64,000 nucleotides of DNA from Blastococcus tunisiensis. Lineage in GTDB: Bacteria; Actinomycetota; Actinomycetes; Mycobacteriales; Geodermatophilaceae. The DNA is taken from contig NZ_FOND01000004.1 of assembly GCF_900112815.1 (NCBI RefSeq), positions 186,001 to 250,000 of the forward strand. The letters run 5' to 3'. Within the stretch, counting starts at the first letter, position 1; the number at the start of each line of letters is the position of its first letter. The notes beneath the pieces were generated by a model. The model searched no databases. It saw only the letters and a list, made by a program, of their open reading frames with translations, and was not told the DNA's origin. Positions 1,909 through 55,279 of the stretch are shown here, one piece after another. The translations under genes were made by a program, and so were the position numbers.

Positions 1909-1965
1909 GCCCCCTCCAGGGCACCGCCCCGAGCCTGCGAGGGGTGGGGAGAAGGGGTCCTTCGT
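1908..1965 (+). repeat. Intergenic hairpin repeat family B, copy 1
   Basis: This element lies between convergent genes. Its outer stem pairs GGCCCCCTCC (1908-1917) with GAAGGGGTCC (1951-1960), with two mismatches. The apical part contains GAGCCTGCGAGGGGTGGGG (1931-1949), closely matching the apex of copies at 36256-36315 (inverted) and 55220-55275. It can fold on either strand and may act as a bidirectional terminator. Confidence 0.75.
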
Positions 1966-9220: not shown

Positions 9221-10771
9221 ATGTCGCTCGTCGAGCAGATGGACACGGTCACCGACGCCGCCGCCGGCACGGTCGACCGCCACGCCACCACCCAGACCTT
9301 CGAGTCCACGAACCCCGCCTCCGGTGCGGTCGTCGGCGTCTTCCCGGTGCACGACACCGGCGCCGTCACCGAGACCGTGGAGCGCGCCCGCCCGGCCGCG
9401 GCCCGCTGGGCCGAACTGGGTTTCGACGGGCGCAGGGAGCGGCTTGCCGCCTACCGCGGCTACCTCGCCCGGCGGATGAACGAGCTCGCCGACCTCGTCC
9501 ACCGCGAGAACGGCAAGCCGCACGCCGACGCGATCCTCGAGATCACCCTGGCCGTCGAACACCTGGCCTGGGCCGGCAGCCACGCCCGCAAGGCGCTGGG
9601 CTCCCGTCGGGTGAGGACCGGCCTGCTCGCGGCCAACCACGCCGCGTACCTCGAGTACCAGCCGCTCGGCGTCGTCGGCGTCATCGGCCCGTGGAACTAC
9701 CCGGTTTTCACGCCGATGGGCTCGATCGCCTACGCGCTGGCCGCGGGCAACGCCGTCGTCTTCAAGCCCTCGGAGCACACCCCCGCCGTGGGCGCCTGGC
9801 TGGCCGCTGCGTGGCGCGCCGCCGTCCCCGACTGCGCGGACGCGTTCCAGGTCGTCACCGGGTTCGGCGAGACCGGTGCCGCCCTGTGCCGCGCCGGCGT
9901 CGGCAAGCTCGCCTTCACCGGCTCGGCCCCGACCGGCCGCAAGGTCATGGCCGCCTGCGCCGAGACGCTGACCCCGGTGCTCATGGAGCTCGGCGGCAAG
10001 GACGCGATGATCGTCGACGACGACGCCGACGTGGTGGCCGCCGCCGACGCCGCCGTCTGGGGCGCCATGAGCAACGCCGGGCAGACCTGCATCGGCATCG
10101 AGCGCGTCTACGCGACCAGCGCCGTCTACGACCGGTTCGTCGCCGAGGTCACCGCCCAGGTCCGGAAGCTGCGCCCCGGCTCCGACGACGAGGCGACGTA
10201 CGGCCCGATGACCATGGCCTCCCAGGGCGACATCGTCCGCCGGCACGTGTCGGACGCGGCGGCCAGCGGCCGGGTGGTCCGGGGCGAGGCCGACCCGGCC
10301 CTGTTCCCCAACGAGAACTACCTCGCCCCCGCCGTGCTGCTCGACGTGCCCGACTCCTCCCCCGCCATCTGCGAGGAGACCTTCGGGCCGACGCTGTCGA
10401 TCACCCGGGTGCGCGACGCCGAGGAGGCCCTCGAGCGGGCCAACGCCACCTCCTACGGCCTGGCCGGCTCGGTGTTCACGCGGTCGAAGGCCCGCGGCCT
10501 CGACCTCGCCCGTCGCATGCGCAGCGGCATGACCTCGGTGAACTCCGTCCTCACGTTCGCCTCCGTCCCGGCGCTGCCCTTCGGCGGGGTCGGCGAGAGC
10601 GGCTTCGGCCGGATCCACGGCGAGGACGGGCTCAAGGAGTTCACCCGCGCCAAGGCGATCACCCGCCAGAAGTACGCGCTGCCGGTGAACCTGATGAGCT
10701 TCGGCCGCCCCGCCTCGGCCACCGACGCGGTCGCCCGGGTCATGGGGATGATCCACGGGCGCCACCGGTGA
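9221..10771 (+). CDS. Aldehyde dehydrogenase (NAD(P)-dependent)
   Basis: This 516-residue ALDH-superfamily enzyme oxidises an aldehyde to the acid. The catalytic Cys290 lies in NAGQTCIGIERVY and the general base Glu256 in MELGGKDAMIV. The cofactor-binding motif is FTGSAPTG and the substrate-side motif is EETFGPTLS. The C-terminal 40 residues (QKYALPVNLMSFGRP onward) exceed the core fold and resemble ALDHs that act on bulky or membrane-linked aldehydes. Its GTGA overlap with the next gene, a GMC alcohol oxidoreductase, indicates a two-step alcohol to aldehyde to acid pathway. Betaine synthesis from choline is one possibility, but the ALDH does not look like a typical BetB. Confidence 0.9.
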   Translation: MSLVEQMDTVTDAAAGTVDRHATTQTFESTNPASGAVVGVFPVHDTGAVTETVERARPAAARWAELGFDGRRERLAAYRGYLARRMNELADLVHRENGKPHADAILEITLAVEHLAWAGSHARKALGSRRVRTGLLAANHAAYLEYQPLGVVGVIGPWNYPVFTPMGSIAYALAAGNAVVFKPSEHTPAVGAWLAAAWRAAVPDCADAFQVVTGFGETGAALCRAGVGKLAFTGSAPTGRKVMAACAETLTPVLMELGGKDAMIVDDDADVVAAADAAVWGAMSNAGQTCIGIERVYATSAVYDRFVAEVTAQVRKLRPGSDDEATYGPMTMASQGDIVRRHVSDAAASGRVVRGEADPALFPNENYLAPAVLLDVPDSSPAICEETFGPTLSITRVRDAEEALERANATSYGLAGSVFTRSKARGLDLARRMRSGMTSVNSVLTFASVPALPFGGVGESGFGRIHGEDGLKEFTRAKAITRQKYALPVNLMSFGRPASATDAVARVMGMIHGRHR

Positions 10772-12387
10772 CCGCACCGGAGTCGACCGAGTTCGACGTC
10801 GTCGTCGTCGGTGCCGGGTCGGCCGGCTGCGCGGTCGCCGGCCGGCTGTCGGAGGACCCGACGCTGCGGGTGCTGCTGCTCGAGGCCGGCGGTTCCGACG
10901 ACGTCCTCGAGGTGCAGATCCCGGCCGGGCTGTACAAGACCTGGCGCACCCGGCTGGACTGGAACTACACGACCGAGCCGCAGCCGGGCCTCGACGGCCG
11001 CCGGCTGTTCTGGCCACGCGGCAAGCTGCTGGGCGGTTCCTCCTCGATCAACGCCATGATCTACATGCGCGGCGGGAGGTGCGACTACGACGAGTGGGCG
11101 GAGCTGACCGGCGACCCGTCGTGGTCCTACGAGCACGTGCTGCCGCTGTTCCGGCGCATGGAGGACAACGCCCGCGGCGCCGACCGCTTCCACGGCGTGG
11201 GCGGGCCGCTGCGGGTGGAGGACCTGCGCTCGCCCCACCCGTGGACCCGCGCCGTCGTCGAGGCCGCGGTCGCCGCCGGCTACCCGCGCAACGACGACTT
11301 CAACGGCGCCGCCCTCGAGGGCGTCGGGCAGTACCAGGTGACGCAGCGACGGGGCCGCCGCTGGTCGTCGGCCGCGGCCTACCTGCACCCGGCCGGCCGG
11401 CGGCCGAACCTGACCGTCCGGACCGGCGCCCTGACGACCCGGGTGCTCGTGGAGAACGGCCGGGCGATCGGCGTCGAGTACCGCGCCGGCGGGCGGGTGC
11501 ACACCGCGCACGCGGCCCGCGAGGTGGTGCTCTCCGGTGGTGCGATCAACAGCCCTCAGCTGCTGATGCTGTCGGGCATCGGGCCGGCCGACCACCTGCG
11601 CGAGGTCGGCGTCGACGTCGTCCACGACCTGCCCGGTGTCGGCGGCGGCCTGCAGGACCACCCGCTGGTGCCGGTCGTCTCCACGGTGCGGTCGGGGACG
11701 TCGCTGCGGCTGGCCGAGTCGCCGGTCAACCTGGCCCGGTGGAAGGCCACCGGCCGGGGCCCGCTCACCTCGAACCTGGCCGAGGCGGGGCTGTTCACCC
11801 GCTCGGACCCCGCGCTGACCGAGCCGGACCTGCAGTTCCACTTCCTGCCGGTGAAGTTCTGGAAGCAGGCGGAGATCGACCCGGACGCCGAGGCCTTCAG
11901 CAGCCTCGTCGTCCTGGTGCGCGTGCACTCGCGCGGATCGGTGCGGCTGCGCTCGGCCGACCCGACGTGGGCGCCGGTCATCGACGCGGGCTACCTCACC
12001 GACGAGCGCGACCTGGAGGCGCTGGTCTCCGGCGTCGAGCAGGCCCGCGGGATCGCGGCGACCGAGCCGCTCGCGTCGGTGCTCGGCGAGGAGTGGTCGC
12101 CGGGCGGCGCGGTGCAGGGCCGCGACGGGCTGCGCGCCTCGGTGCGGAACACCCTCGAGTCGCTGTACCACCCGGTGTCGTCGTGCCGGATGGGCACCGA
12201 CGAGCAGGCGGTCGTCGACCCGCAGCTGCGGGTGCGCGGCATCGAGGGGCTGCGGGTGGCCGACGCCTCGGTGATGCCGACGCTGGTGCGGGGCAACACC
12301 AACGCGCCGACGATGATGATCGGTGAGCGGGCCGCGGACCTGATCCTGGGCCGCACCGTCGACCCCGTCCTGGCCGCCGCCGGCTGA
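10768..12387 (+). CDS. GMC-family FAD alcohol dehydrogenase (choline dehydrogenase-like)
   Basis: This 539-residue flavoprotein oxidises a primary alcohol to an aldehyde. The FAD-binding GAGSAGCAVAGRLSE motif is at residues 13-27, and GMC signature 1 appears as GGSSSINAMIYMRGG near residue 92. The second signature is GAINSPQLLMLSGIGP near residue 250. The catalytic His is in LYHPVSSCRMG, and the C-terminal FAD contact is RGNTNAPTMMIGERAADLI. The GTG start overlaps the ALDH stop (GTGA). The order ALDH then GMC oxidase fits oxidation of one alcohol substrate through both enzymes. The substrate is unknown; choline or a polyethylene-glycol-like or aliphatic alcohol is possible. Confidence 0.9.
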   Translation: MTAPESTEFDVVVVGAGSAGCAVAGRLSEDPTLRVLLLEAGGSDDVLEVQIPAGLYKTWRTRLDWNYTTEPQPGLDGRRLFWPRGKLLGGSSSINAMIYMRGGRCDYDEWAELTGDPSWSYEHVLPLFRRMEDNARGADRFHGVGGPLRVEDLRSPHPWTRAVVEAAVAAGYPRNDDFNGAALEGVGQYQVTQRRGRRWSSAAAYLHPAGRRPNLTVRTGALTTRVLVENGRAIGVEYRAGGRVHTAHAAREVVLSGGAINSPQLLMLSGIGPADHLREVGVDVVHDLPGVGGGLQDHPLVPVVSTVRSGTSLRLAESPVNLARWKATGRGPLTSNLAEAGLFTRSDPALTEPDLQFHFLPVKFWKQAEIDPDAEAFSSLVVLVRVHSRGSVRLRSADPTWAPVIDAGYLTDERDLEALVSGVEQARGIAATEPLASVLGEEWSPGGAVQGRDGLRASVRNTLESLYHPVSSCRMGTDEQAVVDPQLRVRGIEGLRVADASVMPTLVRGNTNAPTMMIGERAADLILGRTVDPVLAAAG

Positions 12388-12392
12388 CGCGC

Positions 12393-12478
12393 CGCGCCAT
12401 GATCAGGTGCCCTGATCATGGCGCGTCCTCCCCCACGGCGGGCGGTGAGGGAGGACGCCGCGCGGCGAGGGAGGACCC
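12393..12478 (-). repeat. Compound palindromic repeat family A, copy 1
   Basis: This copy lies between convergent genes and is inverted relative to the other two. A perfect 15-bp hairpin spans 12393-12425 (left arm CGCGCCATGATCAGG, loop TGC). It is followed by GCGTCCTCCCCCAC (12423-12436) pairing with GTGAGGGAGGACGC (12445-12458), 13 of 14 bases. A third related arm, GCGAGGGAGGAC, lies at 12465-12476. Confidence 0.8.
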
Positions 12479-12486
12479 GAGCTCCC

Positions 12487-13818
12487 TCACCCGTGGGCCT
12501 GGGCGGCCGCCGCCTCCCCGCGGTCGGTCGGGCCCACGGTCGTCGCGGGCGGGGGCAGGTTCCGGCGGATCGAGATCGAGGCGGCGGCCGCCACGAGGCA
12601 CAACCCGCCGGCGAGGAACCAGGCCAGGTCGTAGGAGCCGGTGACGTCGCGGATGACTCCCCCGCCGAACGCCGCGACCGCCGCGCCCACCTGGTGGGAG
12701 GCGAACACCCAGCCGAAGACGACGGGTGCGCGGGCGCCGAAGTGCTCGCGGCACAGCGCCAGCGTCGGCGGCACCGTGGCCACCCAGTCCAGCCCGTAGA
12801 AGACGATGAACGCGATCATGCTGACGTGCAGATCCGGCCCGAACAGGGTGGGCAGCGCGAACAGCGAGAGCCCGCGCAGGCCGTAGTAGGCCAGCAGCAG
12901 CACCCGCGGGTCGACGCGGTCGGTGAGCCAGCCGGAGAAGATCGTGCCGGCGATGTCGAACAGGCCGACGACGGCGAGCAGGCCGGCCGCCGTCGTCACC
13001 GGCATCCCGTGGTCGTGGGCGGCCGGGATGAAGTGCGGCTGCACCAGCCCGTTGGTCGACATGCCGCAGATGAAGAAGCCGGCCGCCAGCAGCCAGAACG
13101 GCCGTGATCGCGCGGCCAGCGTCAGGCCCTGCACCGCGGCGCGCGCGGCGCCGGCCCGCACCGGCTCCGGGTCGTCGGCGGGGGTACCGCCGTACGGGGC
13201 GACGCCGAGGTCGCGCGGCCGGTCGCGCAGCAGCCAGGCCACCAGCGGCAGGACGGCGAGCGCGGCCGCCGTCGTCCCCAGGGAGGCCGCCCGCCAGCCC
13301 CACGCGGAGTCGATCCAGGCCACCAGCGGCAGGAAGACCAGCTGACCGGCCGCGCCGCCGGCGGTGAGGATCCCCGAGACCAGGCCGCGCCGGGCGACGA
13401 ACCAGCGGCCGGTCACCGTGGCCACCAGCGACAGCGCCATCGATCCGGAGCCCAGGCCGACGAGCACGCCCCAGAGCAGGACCAGCTGCCAGCTCGCCGT
13501 CATGAAGACCGTGAGCCCACTGCCCAGGGCGACCACGAGCAGCGCGGCCAGCACGACCCGGCGGATGCCGAAGCGCTCCATCAGCGCGGCGGCGAACGGC
13601 GCGGTCAGCCCGTACAGCGCCATGTTGATCGCCACGGCGGCCGAGATCGTGGAGACCGACCAGCCGAACTCCGCGCGCAGCGGGTCGATGAGCACGCCCG
13701 GCACCGCACGGAAGGCCGCAGCGCCGACCAGCGCCAGGAACGTCACGGCCGCCACCCACCACGCGGGATGGATCCGGGGCACACGCGGCGGGGCGGCGAC
13801 GGTCACGCCGGACAGCAT
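12487..13818 (-). CDS. MFS transporter
   Basis: This 443-residue protein has about 12 membrane segments in two blocks joined by a charged loop near residue 210 (RDRPRDLGVAPYGGTPADDPEPV). This is the layout of major facilitator transporters. The sequence style, with MERFGIRRV between segments 2 and 3, resembles the monocarboxylate/oxalate-formate porter families. The substrate cannot be assigned. It stands alone, convergent with the GMC oxidoreductase and divergent from the helicase gene. The ATG at 13818 lacks a clear ribosome binding site, and a GTG five codons later is an alternative start. The C terminus is short and Ala-rich. Confidence 0.85.
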   Translation of the reverse strand: MLSGVTVAAPPRVPRIHPAWWVAAVTFLALVGAAAFRAVPGVLIDPLRAEFGWSVSTISAAVAINMALYGLTAPFAAALMERFGIRRVVLAALLVVALGSGLTVFMTASWQLVLLWGVLVGLGSGSMALSLVATVTGRWFVARRGLVSGILTAGGAAGQLVFLPLVAWIDSAWGWRAASLGTTAAALAVLPLVAWLLRDRPRDLGVAPYGGTPADDPEPVRAGAARAAVQGLTLAARSRPFWLLAAGFFICGMSTNGLVQPHFIPAAHDHGMPVTTAAGLLAVVGLFDIAGTIFSGWLTDRVDPRVLLLAYYGLRGLSLFALPTLFGPDLHVSMIAFIVFYGLDWVATVPPTLALCREHFGARAPVVFGWVFASHQVGAAVAAFGGGVIRDVTGSYDLAWFLAGGLCLVAAAASISIRRNLPPPATTVGPTDRGEAAAAQAHG

Positions 13819-14150
13819 GACCCGTGGGCACCCCCGGGGACGACGCGCCGCCCGGACGAAAAGGACCGGGATCCCGCCACATCGGCCACCCGGCGCTCAC
13901 CCGATGTGACGGGGGACTCCCCCAGGGTGGGACCACGCGGCGGTGATCTCTGGTTGAGTACTACGTACCGGCGCCGCCCTCGCTCATCCGGAGCGGCAGG
14001 AATCGACGTCGGGCTGAGGCTGCGCCACCTTGGTGCGCCCGGCTGACCGACGTCTCGCCGACGATGCGAGCCCGCCCTGCCCCCGCGCAGACGTGCTGGC
14101 GCTCGCGCTCGCCGAGGCTCGTGCGGCCACTCGAACGCCGAAGGACTCTC
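13819..14150. other. 332-bp divergent intergenic region before the helicase gene
   Basis: No gene is supported here. The region must carry the promoters of the MFS gene (minus) and the helicase (plus). A hairpin-like GCGCCACCTTGGTGCGC lies at 14023-14039 or close by. Long untranslated leaders are known for cold-inducible DEAD-box helicase genes, and the length here would allow one, but no motif proves it. Confidence 0.4.
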
Positions 14151-15761
14151 TTGACCTCCATCAGCAACTCCCCTGCCTCCTCCACCGACGGCGTCCCCCG
14201 GCGCCGTCGAGGCGGACGCGGCCGCGGCGCCCGCCCCGCCGGTGACCAGCAGGGCCAGAACCCCCAGAGCCAGAACCCGCACCGCCCGGAGCCGGCGGCC
14301 GCGGCCCCGGCTCCCGTCGTCCCCGTGGGCGCCGACGCCACCGTCCTCCCGACCGACACCACCTTCGCGGCGCTGGGCGTTCCCGCCCCCCTCGTCGAGG
14401 TGCTCACCAGCAGCGGCATCACCGCACCGTTCCCGATCCAGGTGGCCACGCTGCCCGACAGCCTGGGCGGGCGCGACGTCCTCGGCCGGGGCCGCACCGG
14501 CTCCGGCAAGACCCTCGCCTTCAGCCTCCCGCTGGTCGCCCGCCTGGCCGCCTCGGACAGCAAGCGGCAGGCCAAGCGGCCCCGCTCGCTGATCCTGGTG
14601 CCGACCCGCGAGCTGGCCAACCAGGTCGCCGCCGTCGTCGACCCGATGGCCCGCGCCCTGGGCATGAAGACGACCACGATCTTCGGCGGCGTCGGCCAGA
14701 ACCCCCAGGTGCAGGCCCTCGCCGGCGGCATCGACGTGCTCATCGCCTGCCCCGGCCGGCTCGAGGACCTCATCGGCCAGGGGCACTGCGACCTCGGCGC
14801 CGTCGAGATCACCATCCTCGACGAGGCCGACCACATGGCCGACCTGGGCTTCCTGCCCGGCGTCAAGCGGCTCATGGACCGCACCCCCAAGGTCGGCCAG
14901 CGGCTGCTCTTCTCCGCCACCCTGGACAACGGCGTCGACGTGCTCGTCAAGCGCTACCTGAGCAACCCGGTCACCCACTCGGTCGACCCCGCCGTGGCAC
15001 CGGTCAGCACCATGACCCACCACGTGCTGCAGGTGCAGACCGCCGACAAGGCCGAGGTCGTGCGCCAGCTCGCCTCCGGTCTGGGCCGCAGCGTGCTGTT
15101 CACCCGCACCAAGCACCAGGCGAAGAAGCTCGCCAAGCAGCTCACCGCGTCGGGCATCCCAGCCGTCGACCTGCACGGCAACCTCAGCCAGAACGCCCGC
15201 GAGCGCAACCTCGAGGCGTTCACCACCGGCGCCAGCCGGGTGCTGTGCGCGACCGACATCGCCGCCCGGGGCATCCACGTCGACGACGTCGCACTCGTCG
15301 TCCACGTCGAGCCGCCGGCCGAGCACAAGGCCTACCTGCACCGCTCGGGCCGCACCGCGCGCGCGGGCGCCGAGGGCGCGGTCGTCACCGTCTCCACCCC
15401 CGACCAGGCCGGCGAGGTCCGCACCCTGGCCCGCCAGGCCGGCATCACGCCGAAGGTCAGCGCCGTGCGCCCGGGCGCGCCCGAGATCGAGGCGCTCACC
15501 GGCCCGGCCGCCCCCTACGTCGAGCCGGCGCCGGTCGTCGAGCAGCCGCAGGGCAACGGCGGTGGGCGCCGTCGCAACGGCGGTGGCTCCGGTCGCGGCT
15601 CCTCCGGCGGCGGCACGCCCAAGGCCGGGTCCTCCGGCGGCTCGCGCGGAGGCTCCGGCCGCGCGTCCGGCCCGGCGCGGACCCGCGCCGAGCTCGCCGC
15701 CCGGGCCGGGAGCTCGTCGGCGGCGTCCTTCAGCGCCCGCTCGCGACGCGGCGGCCGCTGA
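14151..15761 (+). CDS. DEAD-box RNA helicase
   Basis: This 536-residue ATP-dependent RNA helicase remodels RNA, probably in ribosome assembly or mRNA decay. Motif I is RTGSGKT, Ia is PTRELANQ, II is LDEADHMADLGF, III is FSAT, and motif VI is HRSGRTARAG. The N-terminal 60 residues are Arg/Gly-rich and Pro/Ala-rich. The last 80 residues are a Gly/Arg/Ser-rich low-complexity tail, typical of RNA-binding and condensate-forming helicases. I chose the TTG at 14151 because AAGGA lies five bases upstream. An in-frame ATG at 14064 would add 29 residues without a ribosome binding site. The gene is monocistronic and ends at repeat family A copy 2. Confidence 0.9.
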   Translation: MTSISNSPASSTDGVPRRRRGGRGRGARPAGDQQGQNPQSQNPHRPEPAAAAPAPVVPVGADATVLPTDTTFAALGVPAPLVEVLTSSGITAPFPIQVATLPDSLGGRDVLGRGRTGSGKTLAFSLPLVARLAASDSKRQAKRPRSLILVPTRELANQVAAVVDPMARALGMKTTTIFGGVGQNPQVQALAGGIDVLIACPGRLEDLIGQGHCDLGAVEITILDEADHMADLGFLPGVKRLMDRTPKVGQRLLFSATLDNGVDVLVKRYLSNPVTHSVDPAVAPVSTMTHHVLQVQTADKAEVVRQLASGLGRSVLFTRTKHQAKKLAKQLTASGIPAVDLHGNLSQNARERNLEAFTTGASRVLCATDIAARGIHVDDVALVVHVEPPAEHKAYLHRSGRTARAGAEGAVVTVSTPDQAGEVRTLARQAGITPKVSAVRPGAPEIEALTGPAAPYVEPAPVVEQPQGNGGGRRRNGGGSGRGSSGGGTPKAGSSGGSRGGSGRASGPARTRAELAARAGSSSAASFSARSRRGGR

Positions 15762-15814
15762 CCCTCGGCCCCTCCGGCCGCCCCTCGGCCCGTCCGGCCG
15801 CCCCTCGGCCCGTC
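15761..15814 (+). repeat. Short tandem repeat, 20-bp unit, about 2.7 copies
   Basis: The unit CCCCTCGGCCCGTCCGGCCG occurs at 15781-15800. A variant with two changes precedes it (15761-15780, overlapping the helicase stop codon), and a partial copy follows (15801-15814). The array runs directly into repeat family A copy 2. Confidence 0.75.
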
Positions 15815-15892
15815 CTCCCTCACCGGAGAGCGTCCTCCCCCACCGTCCGCGGTGAGGGAGGACGCGCCATGATCAGGTTCCCTGATCATGGC
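15811..15892 (+). repeat. Compound palindromic repeat family A, copy 2
   Basis: It lies between the convergent helicase and regulator genes. The outer left arm CGTCCTCCCTCACC (15811-15824) and an inner left arm GCGTCCTCCCCCACC (15830-15844) compete for one right arm, GGTGAGGGAGGACGC (15851-15865). A second perfect hairpin follows, CCATGATCAGG (15867-15877) with loop TTC and CCTGATCATGG (15881-15891). Confidence 0.85.
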
Positions 15893-15917
15893 TCCGCGGG
15901 CGGGGAGCCCGGGCCCG

Positions 15918-17684
15918 TCAGGCGTCGGTGATCGCGTAGGTCGTGATCTTGCGGTAGAGGGAGCTGCGGGACATCCCGAGCGAGGCGGCCGCGCGTGCCC
16001 GGTTGCCCCGGCACCGCGCCAGCGCCGCCACGATCGCGTCCCGCTCCACGGACTCGAGCGGTGTCAGCGTGTGCCTGCTGCCGGACGTCCGGCACCAGGC
16101 CGGCAGGTCCTCGGGCCGGATCTCGCCGACCGGGTGCTTGCGCAGCGCCTCCGCGAGGGCCTCCCGCAGCTGGACGAGGTTTCCCGGCCACGGATGGCGG
16201 CCGATCAGCCGGCCGGCCTCGGGGTGCAGCCGCACCCGCCGGTCGGGTGCGAGCTCGGTGAGCAGGGAGGCGACGATCCCCGGCAGGTCGTCGGTGCGGA
16301 AGCGCAGCGGTGGCAGGGTCACCGCCTGCTGGAACTCCCCCAGCACCGCCTGGAACGGCAGGTCGAGCCCGGTGCTGGCGTCGCTCAGCGTCGCCGCGAC
16401 CAGGTGCCGGTCCGGGTCCAGGGAGCCGAGGAACGCCGGGAGCCGGGCGGCCAGGTCGGCCCCGATCCGGTCGAGGTGCCGCAGCACGACCAGCGTGCGC
16501 GCCGGGCCCGTCTCCGGGAGTGCCTCCCGCACCACGTCCTCGACCTCGCCCGCCACCACGGCACCCGCGGGATGGCGGCGGCCGAACAGCTCGGCGACCA
16601 GCGTGCTCCGGCCGGTTCCCGGCTCACCCATGACGAGCAGCCGGTCGCCGCGGCCGAACGCGGCCCCGATCTGCCCGCACGCCGCGACCCACGCGGGTGA
16701 CCGGCCCCCGGGCGCGGGGGGCGGTGGTGCCGGACCGCCCACCCGGGTTCCCGGCACCGCGGGCCGCGACCGGCCGGGCTCGTCGTCCAGAAGCAGCACG
16801 ATGCCGGCGACCTCCTCCCCGGCCAGGATGCGCGTCGCCCGCAGCCGCACCGTGCGGCCGGACTCCAGGACGACGGACTCCGCCACCCGGTCCCGCCGGC
16901 TCATCAGGAACAGTGCGTACTGGTGGACGGCGAACTGCTCGGCGGGTGAGTAGAGCTGCTGGGCCCGCCGGTTGACCATCAGCGAGTCGCCCACGGCCAT
17001 GACGGCCTGCCGGGGTCGGGCACCGGCCTTGACGAACGTCTCGAAGAGGGCCTGCTGCGCCTGACTGCGGTCCAGCAGCAGGTTGCGGCCGATGTCGGCG
17101 GCGGCGCGCCGGACGAGCGTGTGCATCAGCGGCGTCCAGGTCTCGGCGAGCGAGCTGACGTCGAGCACCCCTTCGACCCGGCCCGTCGCCGGGTCGACGA
17201 CCGGCGCCCCGGTGCAGGCGAACCGCACGAGCGCCTCGGTGAAGTGCTCCGCGCCGACGACGGCGACCGAGGACCCCGTCTCGAAGACCGTCCCGATCCC
17301 GTTGGTCCCCACGCCGCCCTCGCCGAAGTCGAAGCCGGCGGTGAAGTCGACCCGGTCGAGCTGGCGGCCGACCGAGGTCGAGCAGTCCAGCCGGTGCACG
17401 ATCCGGGCCTGCGCGTCGGACAGCGCGATGGCCACCGGCACGTCCACCATCTCGCCGGCCAGCCGGTCGATCACCGGGCGGGCGCAGCGGACGAGCCGGG
17501 AATCCAGGTCGACGTCGTCGTGGTAGCTGATCCGGTACTCGTCGGCATCGACGCCGGCCGACCGGCTGCGCCGCCAGGACGCCGCCACCACGTCGCGGAC
17601 GCCGGCCGCCCCCGCGGCGCCGCGCTCGAGGAACTGCGCCCGGGCCGCGGCCACGAGCCGGGGGTCGTCCGCTCGCAGGTGCAC
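15918..17684 (-). CDS. AcoR-like GAF/AAA+/Fis regulator with degenerate AAA+ domain
   Basis: This 588-residue regulator has an N-terminal GAF-type sensor (the FGEGGVGTNGIGTVFETG segment is typical of AcoR), a PAS-like middle section, an AAA+ domain near residues 345-500 and a C-terminal Fis HTH (RNRARAAASLGMSRSSLYRKI). Walker A is GEPGTGRSTL and Walker B is TLVVLRHLD, but the GAFTGA loop that contacts sigma-54 is absent and the AAA+ domain is shortened. That fits actinobacteria, which lack sigma-54. The GTG at 17684 has GGAGG five bases upstream; GTGs at 17690 and 17696 are alternatives. It is divergent from a ketone-oxidising operon, which it probably activates in response to substrate. Confidence 0.88.
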   Translation of the reverse strand: MHLRADDPRLVAAARAQFLERGAAGAAGVRDVVAASWRRSRSAGVDADEYRISYHDDVDLDSRLVRCARPVIDRLAGEMVDVPVAIALSDAQARIVHRLDCSTSVGRQLDRVDFTAGFDFGEGGVGTNGIGTVFETGSSVAVVGAEHFTEALVRFACTGAPVVDPATGRVEGVLDVSSLAETWTPLMHTLVRRAAADIGRNLLLDRSQAQQALFETFVKAGARPRQAVMAVGDSLMVNRRAQQLYSPAEQFAVHQYALFLMSRRDRVAESVVLESGRTVRLRATRILAGEEVAGIVLLLDDEPGRSRPAVPGTRVGGPAPPPPAPGGRSPAWVAACGQIGAAFGRGDRLLVMGEPGTGRSTLVAELFGRRHPAGAVVAGEVEDVVREALPETGPARTLVVLRHLDRIGADLAARLPAFLGSLDPDRHLVAATLSDASTGLDLPFQAVLGEFQQAVTLPPLRFRTDDLPGIVASLLTELAPDRRVRLHPEAGRLIGRHPWPGNLVQLREALAEALRKHPVGEIRPEDLPAWCRTSGSRHTLTPLESVERDAIVAALARCRGNRARAAASLGMSRSSLYRKITTYAITDA

Positions 17685-17759
17685 GGTCACCTCCACGGCG
17701 TCCCCGTCCGGCCACGGTGCCGCACGGGTGGCGACCGGCGGCGGGAGCCCCCCGGAACT

Positions 17760-17774
17760 GTCCCAAACTGGGAC
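17760..17774. promoter_or_regulatory. Inverted repeat GTCCCA-N3-TGGGAC, candidate operator
   Basis: This perfect 6-bp inverted repeat with spacer AAC is extended by an outer A-T and C-G pair. It lies in the divergent region between the AcoR-like regulator and the monooxygenase, about 90 bp upstream of the monooxygenase start. It is a good candidate for the regulator's binding site. Confidence 0.55.
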
Positions 17775-17802
17775 GGTCCGCCGCGGGGTCCGACGCCGAC
17801 GA

Positions 17803-17830
17803 TGTGGTCTCGAACGTGATCCAGACCACA
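17803..17830. promoter_or_regulatory. Inverted repeat TGTGGTCT-N12-AGACCACA
   Basis: Two perfect 8-bp arms are separated by 12 bp and end 20 bp before the monooxygenase ATG. It could be an operator spanning adjacent helical faces, or an mRNA hairpin close to the ribosome binding site. Confidence 0.55.
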
Positions 17831-17849
17831 GCGAAGGGTAGGGCACCAG

Positions 17850-19493
17850 ATGAGCGTCCAGGCAGACGTGCGCCCCGGCATCGACGACACCGCCGCGACC
17901 CGTGAGCTCGACGCCCTGATCATCGGCGCCGGGGTGGCCGGTCTCTACCAGCTGCACCAGTTGCGCGGGCAGGGACTGCGGGTGCGCGCCTACGACGCCG
18001 CGGACGACGTGGGCGGCACCTGGTTCTGGAACCGGTACCCCGGCGCGCGGTTCGACTCCGAGGCCTACATCTACCAGTACCTGTTCGACGAGGACCTCTA
18101 CAAGAACTGGAGCTGGAGCCAGCGGTTCCCCGACCAGCCCGAGATCGAGCGGTGGCTGCACTACGTCACCGACCGCCTGGACCTCCGCCGCGACATCCAG
18201 TTCGGCGCGACGGTCACCAGCGCACGGTTCGACGAGGAACGGGGCCGGTGGACCGTCACGACCGACCGCGGCGAGACGGTCGACACCCGGTTCCTCGTCA
18301 CCTGCGCCGGGATGCTGTCGGCGCCGCTGACCGAGGTCTTCCCCGGGCAGGAGACGTTCCGGGGCACCGTCGTGCACACCTCGCGCTGGCCGGCCGACGG
18401 CGTCGACCTCGACGGCAAGCGGGTCGGCGTGGTGGGGATCGGCGCCACCGGCATCCAGGTGATCCAGACCATCGCGGGCCAGGCCGGGCACCTGACCGTC
18501 TTCGCGCGGACCCCCCAGTACGTGCTGCCGATGAAGAACCCGCACTTCGAGGCTGACGACGTCGCGGCCTACAAGCAGCGCTTCCCCGAACTGCGGGAGA
18601 CCCTTCCCCGCACCTTCACCGGCTTCGAGTACGAGTGGGCGCACACCTGGGCCGAGCTCACCCCCGAGCAGCGCCGCGAGGAACTGGAGGAGATCCACGC
18701 CAACGGCTCGCTGAAGCTCTGGCTCGCCTCGTTCTCGGAGATGTTCTTCGATGCCGAGGTCAACGAGGAGATCTCGGAGTTCGTCCGGGAGAAGATGCGC
18801 GACCGGCTGCAGGACCCGCGGCTGTGCGACGTGCTGATCCCCACCGACTACGGCTTCGGCACCCACCGGGTCCCGCTGGAGACCGACTACCTCGAGGTCT
18901 ACCACCGCCCGGACGTCGAGCTGGTCAGCGTCCGCGACAACGCCATCACCCGCGTCGTCCCCGAGGGCGTGGTGCTGGCCGACGGGACGGTCCACGAGCT
19001 GGACGTGCTGATCCTGGCCACCGGCTTCGACGCCGGCACCGGGGCGCTCACCCGCATCGACATCCGGGGGCGCGGCGGCCGCTCGCTGACCGAGGACTGG
19101 GGCCGCGACATCCGCACCACCATGGGGCTGATGGTCCACGGCTACCCCAACCTGCTCACCACCGCCGTCCCCCTGGCGCCGTCGGCGGCGCTGTGCAACA
19201 TGACCACCTGCCTGCAGCAGCAGACGGAGTGGATCAGCGATCTCATCGCCCACCTGCGGGCCACGGGGAAGACCGTCATCGAGCCGACCAAGGACGTCGA
19301 GGACGCCTGGGTGGCCCACCACGACGAGACGGCCGGCGCCAACCTCATCTCCCGGACGTCGTCCTGGTACCTGGGGGCGAACGTGCCGGGCAAGCCCCGC
19401 CGCGTCCTCTCCTACACCGGCGGGGTCGGCGCCTACCGGGACAAGTGCACCGAGGCGGCCGCATCCGGCTACCCCGGCTTCGAGATCCGCTGA
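17850..19493 (+). CDS. Baeyer-Villiger monooxygenase
   Basis: This 547-residue FAD/NADPH flavoprotein inserts oxygen next to a ketone carbonyl to give an ester or lactone. The FAD motif GAGVAG is at residues 26-31, followed by [16 protein letters not shown], characteristic of cyclohexanone-monooxygenase-like enzymes. The Baeyer-Villiger fingerprint FxGxxxHTxxWP is present as [12 protein letters not shown]. The NADPH motif is [10 protein letters not shown], and ATGFD occurs near residue 390. The length is typical of type I enzymes. An esterase gene follows after 37 bases, so the pair probably converts a ketone to ester and then to acid and alcohol. Expression is probably controlled by the divergent AcoR-like regulator. 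Confidence 0.93.
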
Positions 19494-19530
19494 CCCCCAC
19501 CCATCCCGCACCCCTCACCGGAGGACTGCC

Positions 19531-20745
19531 ATGACCCACCCGTTCAGCACCGATGCCGACGCGATCCTCGACCGCGCCGTCCGGGCGGAGGCCCCCGTCG
19601 CCGGGGTCGTCGCCATGGTCACCGACCGCGACGGCACCGTGTACGAGGGCGCCGCCGGCGCCCGCCGCCTCGGCGGCGACCAGCCGATGACCGCCGACAC
19701 CGTCTTCGCCCTCTTCTCCACGACCAAGGCCATCACCGCCACCGCCGCGCTCCAGCTCGTCGAGGAGGGGCGCCTCGACCTGGACGCCCCGGCCGCGACC
19801 TACCTCCCCGAGATCGGCGAGCTGAAGGTGCTCGACGGCTTCGGGGACGACGGTGCCCCGCGGCTGCGCGAGCCGAAGCGGGAGATCACCACCCGGATGC
19901 TGCTGACCCACACCGCGGGCTTCGGCTACGACTTCTTCAACGAGCACTACAACCGGCTGGCCGAGGACCACGGGCAGCCGAGCGTCATCACCGCCACCAA
20001 GGCCGCGCTGACGACCCCGCTGCTGTTCGACCCGGGCGAGCGCTGGGAGTACGGCAGCAGCCTCGACTGGTGCGGGCAGGTCGTGGAGCGGCTGACCGGC
20101 GACCGCCTCGGGGACGTCTTCGCCGCCCGGATCTTCGGGCCGCTCGGCATGACCGACACCGGGTTCGAGCTCCGGGACGACCAGCGGACCCGGCTGGCGA
20201 CGATGCACGCCCGGGGTGCGGACGGCTCGCTCACCCCGATGGAGTTCGAGCTGCCCTCGTCGCCGGAGGTGCACATGGGCGGGCACGGGCTCTACGGGTC
20301 GGTCGGGGACTACATGCGTTTCCTGCGGATGTGGCTGAACGACGGCCGGGGCGAGGACGGCGTCGTCCTCCGGCCGGAGACGGTGCGGATGGCCGTGCAG
20401 AACCACCTCGGGGACCTCAAGGTCACCGGGCTCCCCGGGGTGATCCCGTCGCTGTCCAACGACGCGGAGTTCTTCCCCGGGATGCCGAAGTCCTGGTGCC
20501 TGCCCTTCATGATCAACGACGAGGCGGCCCCCACCGGCCGGCCCGCCGGCGCACTCAGCTGGGCCGGGCTGGCCAACCTCTTCTACTGGATCGACCGCGA
20601 CAACGGGTACGCCGGCTTCTGGGCCACCCAGATCCTGCCGTTCGGGGACGCGACGTCCTTCGGCAGCTACCTGGAGTTCGAGACGGCCTTCTACTCCTCG
20701 CTCGCCGGGCGCGACCGGCAGCCGGAGGTGGCCGCCGCGCAGTGA
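19531..20745 (+). CDS. Serine hydrolase of the beta-lactamase class C / esterase family
   Basis: This 404-residue protein has the SxxK nucleophile motif STTK at residues 63-66 and a YGS segment near residue 172 at the usual Tyr position. Family members hydrolyse esters, lactones or beta-lactams. There is no signal peptide, so it is probably cytoplasmic and acts on an intracellular ester. Its location 37 bases after a Baeyer-Villiger monooxygenase strongly suggests that it opens the product ester or lactone. The ATG follows ACCGGAGGACTGCC, a good ribosome binding site. Antibiotic resistance is a less likely role. Confidence 0.87.
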
Positions 20746-20760
20746 GCCGCCCGCTCGCCG

Positions 20761-20840
20761 TCCTCCCTTCCCGTGGCGCGTCCTCCCCCACCGTCCGCGG
20801 GAAGGGAGGACGCGCCATGATCAGGTTCCCTGATCGTGGC
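20761..20840 (+). repeat. Compound palindromic repeat family A, copy 3
   Basis: It lies between convergent genes. The outer left arm TCCTCCCTTCCCG (20761-20773) pairs perfectly with CGGGAAGGGAGGA (20798-20810). The inner left arm, starting at 20778, is unchanged from copy 2 and now pairs over only 10 bp. The second hairpin at 20815-20839 keeps pairing through a G-T wobble. Confidence 0.85.
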
Positions 20841-20852
20841 CGGGCGGGCGGG

Positions 20853-21860
<1,008 letters not shown>

Positions 21861-21915
21861 CAGCGGTCTCCTCGGTCGCGGGGGACTCTCGGCGCGGAAA
21901 GTCCCGGGAATGGGT

Positions 21916-23085
21916 TCAGGAAGGGATCTCGGTCCAGGTCGAGCGGTCGCCGGCACTGCGTTCGACGGCGTCGAGCACGCGCTGCACCTGCAGCCCGTCG
22001 GCGAACGACGGCGCCGGGTCGGTGTTCTGCGCGATCGCGGTGACCAGGTCGACGACCTGGTGGGTGAAGCCGTGCTCGTAGCCGAGCCCGTGTCCGGCGG
22101 GCCACCAGGCGGAGACGTAGGGGTGGCCGGGCTCGGTGACGACGATCCGCCGGAAGCCCGCGGTCTCGTCCGGGTCGTCCCCGTCGAAGAAGTGCAGGAC
22201 GTTCATGTCCTCGAAGTCGAACGCCAGGCTGCCGCGCGAGCCGTTGATCTCGATCCGGATGGCGTTCTTCCGGCCGAGGGCGAACCGCGTGGCCTCGAAG
22301 ACGCCGAGCGCCCCTCCGGTGAACCGGCCGAGGAACACCGCGGCGTCGTCCACGGTGACCGTGCCGGTCCCCTCGCCGCCGACGCCGGACAGCGATCCGG
22401 CCGAGGCGGGCAGCGGCCGCTCGGGGACGAAGGTCTCCAGCAGCGCGCTGACGCCGGTGAGTGCCTGCCCGGTGATGTGCTGCGTGAGGTCGACGATGTG
22501 CGCGCCGATGTCGCCCAGCGCACCCGAGCCCGCCTTGTCCTTCTCCAGCCGCCAGGACATCGGCGCGGCCGGGTCGGCGATCCAGTCCTGCAGGTACTGC
22601 GCCCGGACGTGCCGGATCTCGCCCAGCCGCCCGTCCGCGACCAGCTGCCGGGCCAGCCCGATGGCGGGCACCCGGCGGTAGGTGAAGCCGACCATCGAGC
22701 GGACCCCGCGCGCGGCCGCCTTCGCGGCGGCGTCGGCCATCGCCTCGGCCTCGGCGACGGTGTTGGCCAGCGGCTTCTCGCACAGCACGTGCTTGCCGGC
22801 CTCGAGCGCCGCGACGGCGATCTCGGCGTGCGTGTCGCCGGGCGTGCAGACGTCGACCAGATCGATGTCGTCGCGCTCCAGCAGGCGGTGCCAGTCGGTC
22901 TCGGTCTCGCGCCAGCCGAGCTTGCCGGCGGCCGCGGTGAGCCGTGCAGGGTCCCGGCCGGCCAGCACGGCCAGGTCCGGCCGCAGCGGCAGGTCGAAGA
23001 AGTGGGGGGCGGTACGCCAGGCCTGCGAGTGCGCCGCGCCCATGAAGGCGTAGCCGATCAGCCCGATGCCGAGGGTGGGGGTCAT
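21916..23085 (-). CDS. Gfo/Idh/MocA family oxidoreductase
   Basis: This 389-residue NAD(P)-dependent sugar or polyol dehydrogenase has the N-terminal Rossmann motif [16 protein letters not shown] at residues 8-23. It also has the family CEKPLA motif near residue 100 and the catalytic-region helix [14 protein letters not shown] near residue 190. Family members oxidise inositol, glucose or related hydroxyls. It lies 67 bases after the ABC binding-protein gene, behind a perfect 16-bp hairpin, and 55 bases before the TIM-barrel isomerase gene, so it is probably co-transcribed with both. Together they probably handle the sugar imported by this operon. Confidence 0.9.
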
Positions 23086-36255: not shown

Positions 36256-36315
36256 AAGGACCACCCTTCCCCCCACGCCTCGCAGGCTCGGCGCGGGCCC
36301 CTGAAGGGTGGCCGC
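36256..36315 (-). repeat. Intergenic hairpin repeat family B, copy 2
   Basis: It lies between convergent genes, inverted relative to the other two copies. GGACCACCCTTC (36258-36269) pairs with GAAGGGTGGCC (36303-36313) with one bulged A. The enclosed loop contains CCACGCCTCGCAGGCTCGG, the reverse complement of the conserved apex of family B. Confidence 0.8.
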
Positions 36316-36350
36316 TCCAGCACGTCACCAGCGGGGGTCGTTCCAGGCCG

Positions 36351-55158: not shown

Positions 55159-55219
55159 CGGTGGATCTCCCTTCCGATGAGCGGTTCGGCCCGCTGCAGG
55201 GGCGGTGACGGGCTGGAAC

Positions 55220-55275
55220 GGCCTTCTCGCAGGGGCCCGCGCCGAGCCCGCGAGGCGTGGGGGGCGAGAAGGTCC
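55220..55275 (+). repeat. Intergenic hairpin repeat family B, copy 3
   Basis: GGCCTTCTCGC (55220-55230) pairs with GCGAGAAGGTCC (55264-55275) with a single bulged T. The apex contains CGCCGAGCCCGCGAGGCGTG. The stem sequence differs from copies 1 and 2 yet stays complementary. It lies just after the coxL stop and may separate coxMSL from the accessory genes. Confidence 0.8.
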
Positions 55276-55279
55276 TTGT

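Follow-up and report, generated by a model that had tools for sequence, protein, structure and literature searches.

The window analysed here, a stretch of 64,000 nucleotides of the Blastococcus tunisiensis genome (contig NZ_FOND01000004.1, forward-strand positions 186,001 to 250,000), contains three copies of a compound palindromic repeat, hereafter family A, each in a gap between two genes that converge on it. This arrangement raises the question of what such a repeat does at the ends of genes, how it is dispersed, and what keeps its copies alike. A sequence-only reading of the window had regarded it as a mobile or dispersed structured element, used as a bidirectional terminator or bound by a protein at a TGATCA core. 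With moderate confidence, we favor the view that family A is a family-specific dispersed 3'-end element, acting as a U-less bidirectional or tandem-hairpin terminator or as a 3'-end stabilizer, and dispersed like REPINs (doublets of repetitive extragenic palindromes, REPs, that form hairpins) without a REP-associated tyrosine transposase (RAYT).

Architecture and Copy Number

Family-A elements, when read with hairpin A first, align over 84 bp without gaps. Hairpin A (columns 1-27) consists of a GATCAGGnnnCCTGATC core with a covarying outer stem; hairpin B (GCGTCCTCCC...GGGAGGACGC) spans columns 28-63 and is followed, after four bases, by a third B arm (columns 68-82), in place of which a second hairpin A may end the element. 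Within the window, CCATGATCAGG occurs 12 times with at most one mismatch (0.63 expected) and GCGTCCTCCC eight times (1.12 expected). The three copies lie where they had been reported, to within 4 bases, in gaps that predicted genes confirm as convergent, and copy 1 (+) is indeed inverted relative to copies 2 and 3 (-). The two hairpins in fixed order were also correctly recognized, although the third B arm, which lies 20 bp from arm 2, had been overlooked.

In the window's own genome (G000), a hairpin A pattern gave 30 strand-wise matches at 20 places, with none for the reversed control, and the exact A core is present 44 times. A covariance model trained on 17 copies returned at least 148 strand-wise matches at E values up to 10, the best 150 candidates having been scored, and copy 2 of the window as a whole attained the top score in the genome (105.6 bits). 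Altogether, G000 holds at least 61 elements on 20 contigs (62 clusters after reading of the surrounding DNA, one of which comprises B arms only). The layout is symmetric (A-B-A') in 17 of the 62 clusters; the others consist of A-B with at least one additional B arm, or are variants, and at some loci the additional B arms have expanded into tandem units of 20 bp or slightly longer. Such tandem arrays, seen at L113, L104, L117, L094, L112, and L092, with one running into a stretch of Ns, are likely length-variable repeats.

The proposal of a dispersed structured element is thus well supported, by at least 61 places and by the stem pairing described below, and at the sequence level the genome scan found the motif neither restricted to this locus nor scattered in coding sequence. 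The clustering of three copies, in contrast, is nothing special: when 61 copies were scattered at random, three fell within 8.45 kb in 24.6% of 5000 trials, and other triples, within 6.9 and 9.0 kb, occur on contigs C30 and C42. On C42, a gene (L067:2001-3287) whose translation appears AbiEi-like (type IV antitoxin), as judged by eye only, lies between two oppositely oriented family-A copies.

Placement at Gene Ends

The copies had been described as confined to convergent gaps, which holds for the three in the window but not genome-wide. Among the 61 elements of G000, 35 lie between convergent, 20 between codirectional, and 3 between divergent genes, with 1 called inside a gene and 2 at contig ends. 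The expected enrichment is nevertheless borne out, since 35 of the 58 classified elements occupy convergent gaps, whereas among the 305 gene pairs taken as background from these loci 50 are convergent (187 codirectional, 68 divergent; Fisher p=2.5e-11). In G012, a same-genus relative used for locus comparison, 48 elements examined were distributed as 22 convergent, 21 codirectional, and 4 divergent, with 1 inside a gene (47 classified versus a background of 4/35/7 among 46 pairs, p=5e-5). Codirectional copies stay close to the upstream stop codon: the distance is at most 30 bp for 17 of 20 in G000, where 19 of 20 are nearer to this stop than to the next start, and at most 23 bp for 20 of 21 in G012. 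Such gene-end placement is that of a terminator or a 3'-end hairpin.

Pairing, Folding, and Core Conservation

Stem pairing was tested on 98 distinct copies from 12 genomes, whose relatedness inflates such tests. Paired cells amounted to 90.0%, compared with 85.1% after shuffling and 35-51% in slid controls, and 171 cells carried changes in both members of a pair, versus 86.5 in shuffles. The outer five pairs of hairpin A hold 116 of these 171 double-changed cells while GATCAGG/CCTGATC is almost invariant, indicating that pairing is kept, and the core sequence besides. A protein bound at TGATCA as such, as previously suggested, finds no support: this hexamer occurs in the left arm of 47 of the 98 aligned copies, compared with 96 for GATCAG.

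Not included in alignment A2 were the 17 symmetric clusters, two G000 copies whose A core is incomplete, L253, 11 of one set of 28 G012 loci, and another 20 G012 loci; four of its rows (L090, L089, L218, and L221) show, by eye, a second A where the third arm is expected. Copies from genomes other than G000 were drawn from the best-scoring part of the model match lists.

RNA folds of 8 sequences gave z scores of -5.5 to -9.5. Pairing of arm 1 with arm 3, considered as the main pairing of hairpin B, was rejected, as it accounts for 85.9% of alignment cells versus 89.9% and the flip at columns 29/62 described below has no partner at column 82.

Taxonomic Distribution

The covariance model matched 29 of 61 genomes, comprising 29 of 37 from Geodermatophilaceae and none of 24 from other families, with 0 to 65 strand-wise matches among 15 same-genus relatives. 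The core GATCAGGnnnCCTGATC was present in 82 of 112 family genomes at 0 to 60 copies each (reversed control, 0). In a 397-genome sample of the order, 62 of the 75 family genomes contained it, as did 7 of the 322 others with a single match each; these single matches look like chance, and the reversed control matched in 1 genome. Across a collection of 84,980 species, from which records very close to the window's genome may have been left out, the exact G000 spelling of hairpin A was found only in Blastococcus aggregatus and Geodermatophilus obscurus, in 7 stretches. This exact pattern had no match in viral contigs, the copy 2 sequence had none in plasmid or phage records, and Rfam gave no match at gathering score within the window. 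The titles and abstract openings of the open-licence PubMed Central papers searched contain no description of this repeat. Taken together, the sequence matches indicate that the element is probably family-specific and found across Geodermatophilaceae genera.

Spelling Dialects at Matching Gaps

The base pair at columns 29/62 is C-G in 41 of 42 aligned G000 copies and G-C in 14 of 17 G012 copies. Twenty gaps were matched between the two genomes by both flanks and 17 by one flank, and a paired-gap test used 29 of these (17 both-flank and 12 one-flank). The both-flank rows dropped were C20:198401 (another palindrome in G012), C25:128112 (same G012 locus as C25:129294), and C28:232973; C42:5829 and C42:7049, which matched at about 70% identity and are probably paralogues, were kept out of the pairs. 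At the 29 paired gaps, 28 of the G000 copies have C-G and one has C-A; of the G012 copies, 27 have G-C, one C-C, and one T-C. Four added pairs (C28:232973, C25:99551, C42:14828, and C13:36556) show C-G in all four for G000, with G-C in three and C-C in one for G012. Layout and orientation are the same in 21 of the 29 pairs (14 of 17 both-flank), compared with a permuted mean of 9.1, and three of the eight layout mismatches (L211, L212, and L213) are G012 copies broken by an insertion sequence (IS). Eight aligned matching pairs are 69-83% identical, compared with means of 72% for all cross-genome pairs and 79% within G000 and within G012; five of the eight are less identical than both own-genome means. 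A kept layout together with a flipped base pair at matching gaps indicates that positions are inherited and that spelling changes together, with some locus memory left. Building the covariance model from G000 copies biases against finding such a difference in spelling. Of the 61 G000 copies, 24 have no match to the compared G012 loci, which are mostly G012's own element loci.

Within the window's genus, the C-G pair of G000 is opposed by G-C in G012 (14/17), G008 (3/3), and G013 (2/2), in samples that are small and picked by model score. The three G008 copies read carry the GTCCTGGCTCAC/GTGAGCCAGGAC spelling in all three arms. These dialects do not follow genus labels, and every species seems to have a hairpin spelling of its own.

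An Insertion Sequence Targeting the Hairpin Core

In G012, an IS1182-family element (NF033551, E=1.8e-93; transposase open reading frame (ORF) L206:1628-3019) is present in 9 copies, as counted by a left-end 18-mer that is absent from the 15 other genus genomes searched. Of the nine left ends (L314-L322), eight directly adjoin a GATC in the core of a family-A hairpin, six of them in the arm on the hairpin B side and two in the opposite arm (L319 and L321; hairpin B unread at L321), and the ninth copy (L322) lies elsewhere, outside a family-A hairpin. At the six right ends read (L308-L313), GATC appears again, followed by the rest of the hairpin, which amounts to a 4-bp duplication. The ends of this IS are unrelated to the family-A element. 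An excerpt of a previous study reports that IS1272, also of the IS1182 family, targets hairpins, several of which are confirmed terminators (PMC4923244).

The RAYT-type transposase that might have accompanied the repeat did not materialize. The Y1_Tnp domain (PF01797), which marks RAYT and IS200-type proteins, was found neither in G000 nor in any of 108 family genomes, with 5 of 14 control genomes positive; other transposase families were not searched genome-wide. No autonomous element was seen between close copy pairs (C42, C25, and C30) or in G012 L208, where the ORFs look ordinary by eye, save for the L208 IS.

Other Palindromes at the Copy-1 Gap

Nine other genomes of the genus were read at the gap corresponding to copy 1 (G002, G006, and G015 at both gap ends only), and none showed a family-A element there. 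Instead, G012 has GGCGGAAATGGCCATTTCTGCC, G011 has GGCCGAAGTGGCCACTTCGGCC, G010 and G015 carry pairs of a GTAC palindrome, G003 has another repeat, G005 has a plain 30-bp spacer, and G002, G006, and G009 contain longer inserts. The GTAC palindrome, GCTTTCNGTACNGAAAGC, forms a family of its own, with 53 places in G015, 46 in G010, and 0 or 1 in the 14 others; of its 43 examined clusters, 20 are located in convergent gaps. That unrelated palindromes fill this gap in several other species of the genus supports a hairpin role, as though the task could be performed by hairpins from different families; several hairpin families thus seem to serve the gaps of this genus interchangeably. In the comparison made for target-site duplications of the element, the flanks were 80-90% identical.

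Copies of GCTTTCNGTACNGAAAGC (L268-L307, G015 and G010) are often paired at 34-bp spacing, and G015 is without family A. A second repeat, with arms of the AAGGACC...CCTCGCAGGCTCG...GGGCCCCTGCAGGG type, was seen by eye in other gaps of the window (1909-1964, 36256-36350, and 55159-55279) and also at the copy-1 gap of G003.

Proposed Role and Competing Explanations

The copies probably act as transcription stop signals. When transcribed behind a stop codon, a copy would fold into two strong tandem hairpins, in the order A-B on one strand and B-A on the other; with such two-sided folding, a single copy could terminate the transcripts of both facing genes or shield their 3' ends. As the examined strand lacks a U-tract, the mode of stopping would be U-less or tandem-hairpin termination, or else the hairpins would stabilize 3' ends. 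The 3'-end position of the bidirectional terminator envisaged by the sequence-only reading is well supported, and termination itself is what we infer. The spread and likeness of the copies would most likely reflect slow copying among family members combined with selection for a common stem recognition sequence.

Several observations weigh against this role. On the A-first strand, a U-tract (at least 4 T in 8 nt) follows hairpin A in 0 of 98 copies and hairpin B in 2 of 98, and a terminator scan of both strands found no site at the three window copies. Terminators need no conserved stem sequence, so something beyond termination appears to be kept. The minimum-energy fold joins arm 1 to arm 3, rather than arm 2, in 5 of 7 third-arm sequences. 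Besides the relatedness of the aligned copies, pairs with any double change number 11 versus 10.5 in shuffles (260 of 500), not above them. The excess of G-U over A-C mismatches (105 to 46 seen) is no larger than column composition predicts (135 to 69), and strand evidence from this source was dropped. A preference of orientation toward the stop codon was likewise dropped as irreproducible, with the A end facing the stop in 13 of 16 G000 copies (by hand) but 8 of 18 in G012. In addition, gene calls came from a crude, home-made codon-usage caller, the inserted IS lies beside the element at 7 of the 48 G012 loci with its ORF counted in the context figures, and the orthology test rests on a single related genome.

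A tentative version of RAYT-free "terminator dialects", which we hold to be less than probable, places the copies at fixed sites where a putative trans-acting factor, reading the GATCAGG core and the GTGAG-SS-AGGAC arms, forces joint respelling, including compensatory flips. An unlikely, though not far-fetched, alternative is a non-autonomous mobile element (a miniature inverted-repeat transposable element or REPIN-like) moved in trans by a non-RAYT transposase, for which gene ends are harmless landing places. The great variation in copy number between close relatives (0-65 model matches; 0-60 A cores), the presence of both orientations, and the 24 of 61 G000 copies without a match to compared G012 loci agree with mobility. 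However, the agreement in layout and orientation (21 of 29 versus 9.1 permuted) implies that positions are old, the patchy pattern is also explicable by loss, copy 2 has no match in plasmid or phage records, and no Y1 transposase was found in the 108 family genomes, other transposase families not having been searched. RAYT-driven REPINs in the strict sense are very improbable: the repeats are inverted, extragenic, dispersed, and an IS target, as expected for REPINs, but PF01797 is absent from the window's own genome (0/1) and from the family genomes (0/108), with 5 of 14 controls positive.

It is rather unlikely that the copies are binding sites of a sequence-specific DNA- or RNA-binding protein, a putative factor that would recognize the GATCAGG core together with the 12-mer GTGAG-SS-AGGAC, of which an element has up to 3, and whose drift would drive the dialects. 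The core columns hardly vary, in contrast to the freely covarying outer A stem, and six copies with GG at columns 35-36 have a changed arm 3 (CC in 5, CT in 1); because arm 3 follows columns 35-36 but not the stem-base flip at column 82, reading of the arm rather than pairing is suggested. Yet arm 3 in G019 has CC while arms 1-2 have CC/GG, L247 of G013 has changed arms 1-2 but not arm 3, and the element lies at 3' ends and rarely at promoters. A cis-regulatory or trans-acting structured RNA (riboswitch or small RNA) has almost no probability in our estimate; although the stems covary, no Rfam family reached gathering score within the window, the element is found in either orientation and at gene ends, and the genes flanking the three window copies belong to unrelated Pfam families. 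Sites for Gbn were also considered; according to an excerpt of PMC9239103, this protein requires GATCWT, which on either strand occurs in hairpin A of only 50 of the 98 copies, and this candidate was rejected.

Family A provides a case of family-wide 3'-end hairpins whose spelling changes in step while their sites stay put, without the transposase that accounts for REPINs. It makes testable what keeps dispersed extragenic repeats alike within one genome. The copies are, in addition, candidates for bidirectional terminators in an actinobacterial family, and an IS1182-family element finds in them a defined landing pad.

Features of the Window

Coordinates of the three copies and of their flanking genes are collected in the table below. 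In G012, the helicase and TIM-barrel genes each have an element at the 3' end (L136, L168, and L175, compared with window positions 14000-22000), and the DNA separating these elements is unlike that of the window; with such differing DNA between them, the elements may bound variable gene content.

Table 1. Family-A copies and adjacent predicted genes, in window coordinates
Feature	Position	Strand	Basis or remark
Copy 1 hairpin A (GCCATGATCAGG TGC CCTGATCATGGC)	12396..12422	+	sequence, alignment, RNA fold
Copy 1 hairpin B, arms 1 and 2	12423..12458	+	sequence, alignment, pairing test
Copy 1 third B arm, half site	12463..12477	+	predicted fold: pairs with arm 1, replacing arm 2
Copy 2 hairpin A	15866..15892	-	sequence, alignment
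Copy 2 hairpin B, arms 1 and 2	15830..15865	-	sequence, alignment
Copy 2 third B arm	15811..15825	-	sequence, alignment
Copy 3 hairpin A	20814..20840	-	sequence, alignment
Copy 3 hairpin B, arms 1 and 2	20778..20813	-	sequence, alignment
Copy 3 third B arm	20759..20773	-	better partner for arm 1 here: CCCTTCCCG/CGGGAAGGG (fold)
Predicted gene, stops 8 bp ahead of copy 1	10768..12387	+	gene caller
MFS transporter gene facing copy 1	12487..13818	-	gene caller, Pfam
DEAD-box helicase gene, ends ahead of copy 2	14325..15761	+	start maybe 14064; gene caller, Pfam
Regulator gene facing copy 2	15918..17696	-	GAF and Fis-type helix-turn-helix matches on longer ORF 15918-19511
Beta-lactamase-family protein gene, ends ahead of copy 3	19531..20745	+	gene caller, Pfam
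Xylose-isomerase-like TIM barrel gene facing copy 3	20853..21860	-	start maybe 21956; gene caller, Pfam

Comparison with Known Systems

Family A resembles the REP, REPIN, and bacterial interspersed mosaic element (BIME) sequences of gammaproteobacteria in being a set of short dispersed extragenic palindromes with inverted hairpin units and tandem arrays, found at 61 or more places with 1 of 61 called inside a gene. As far as excerpts of the respective papers indicate, REP elements also serve as IS targets, like family A (PMC1525189), and REP/REPIN sequence populations are long-lasting (PMC8049555, PMC3116915). It differs from them in the lack of a detectable RAYT/Y1 protein among the 108 family genomes, in the combination of two different hairpins in fixed order with a third arm, in its strong placement in convergent gaps, and in the concerted base-pair flip at matching loci; because the RAYT test fails, it is not a REPIN. 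The DNA uptake sequences (DUS) of Neisseriaceae, according to an excerpt of PMC3630211, show within-species dialects and have inverted pairs tied to transcriptional terminators, but occur in thousands of copies and are common within genes. Family A has about 60 compound copies near gene ends, with 44 exact A cores and 1 of 61 inside a gene.

In the U-less ("I-shaped") or tandem-hairpin intrinsic terminators of Actinobacteria, too, strong GC hairpins follow the stop codon directly and have few T behind them. Like an intrinsic terminator, family A places a stable hairpin immediately behind the stop codon, but it is not a classical one because the U-tract test fails. To our knowledge, ordinary terminators have no sequence common between loci, whereas family A has one that is common to loci even across genera. 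The targets of IS1272/TnSha1, also palindromes hit by an IS1182-family element, are hairpins of any sequence and undergo partial deletion with no duplication; in family A, a single sequence family is hit at one base step, GATC, which then stands on both sides of the IS.

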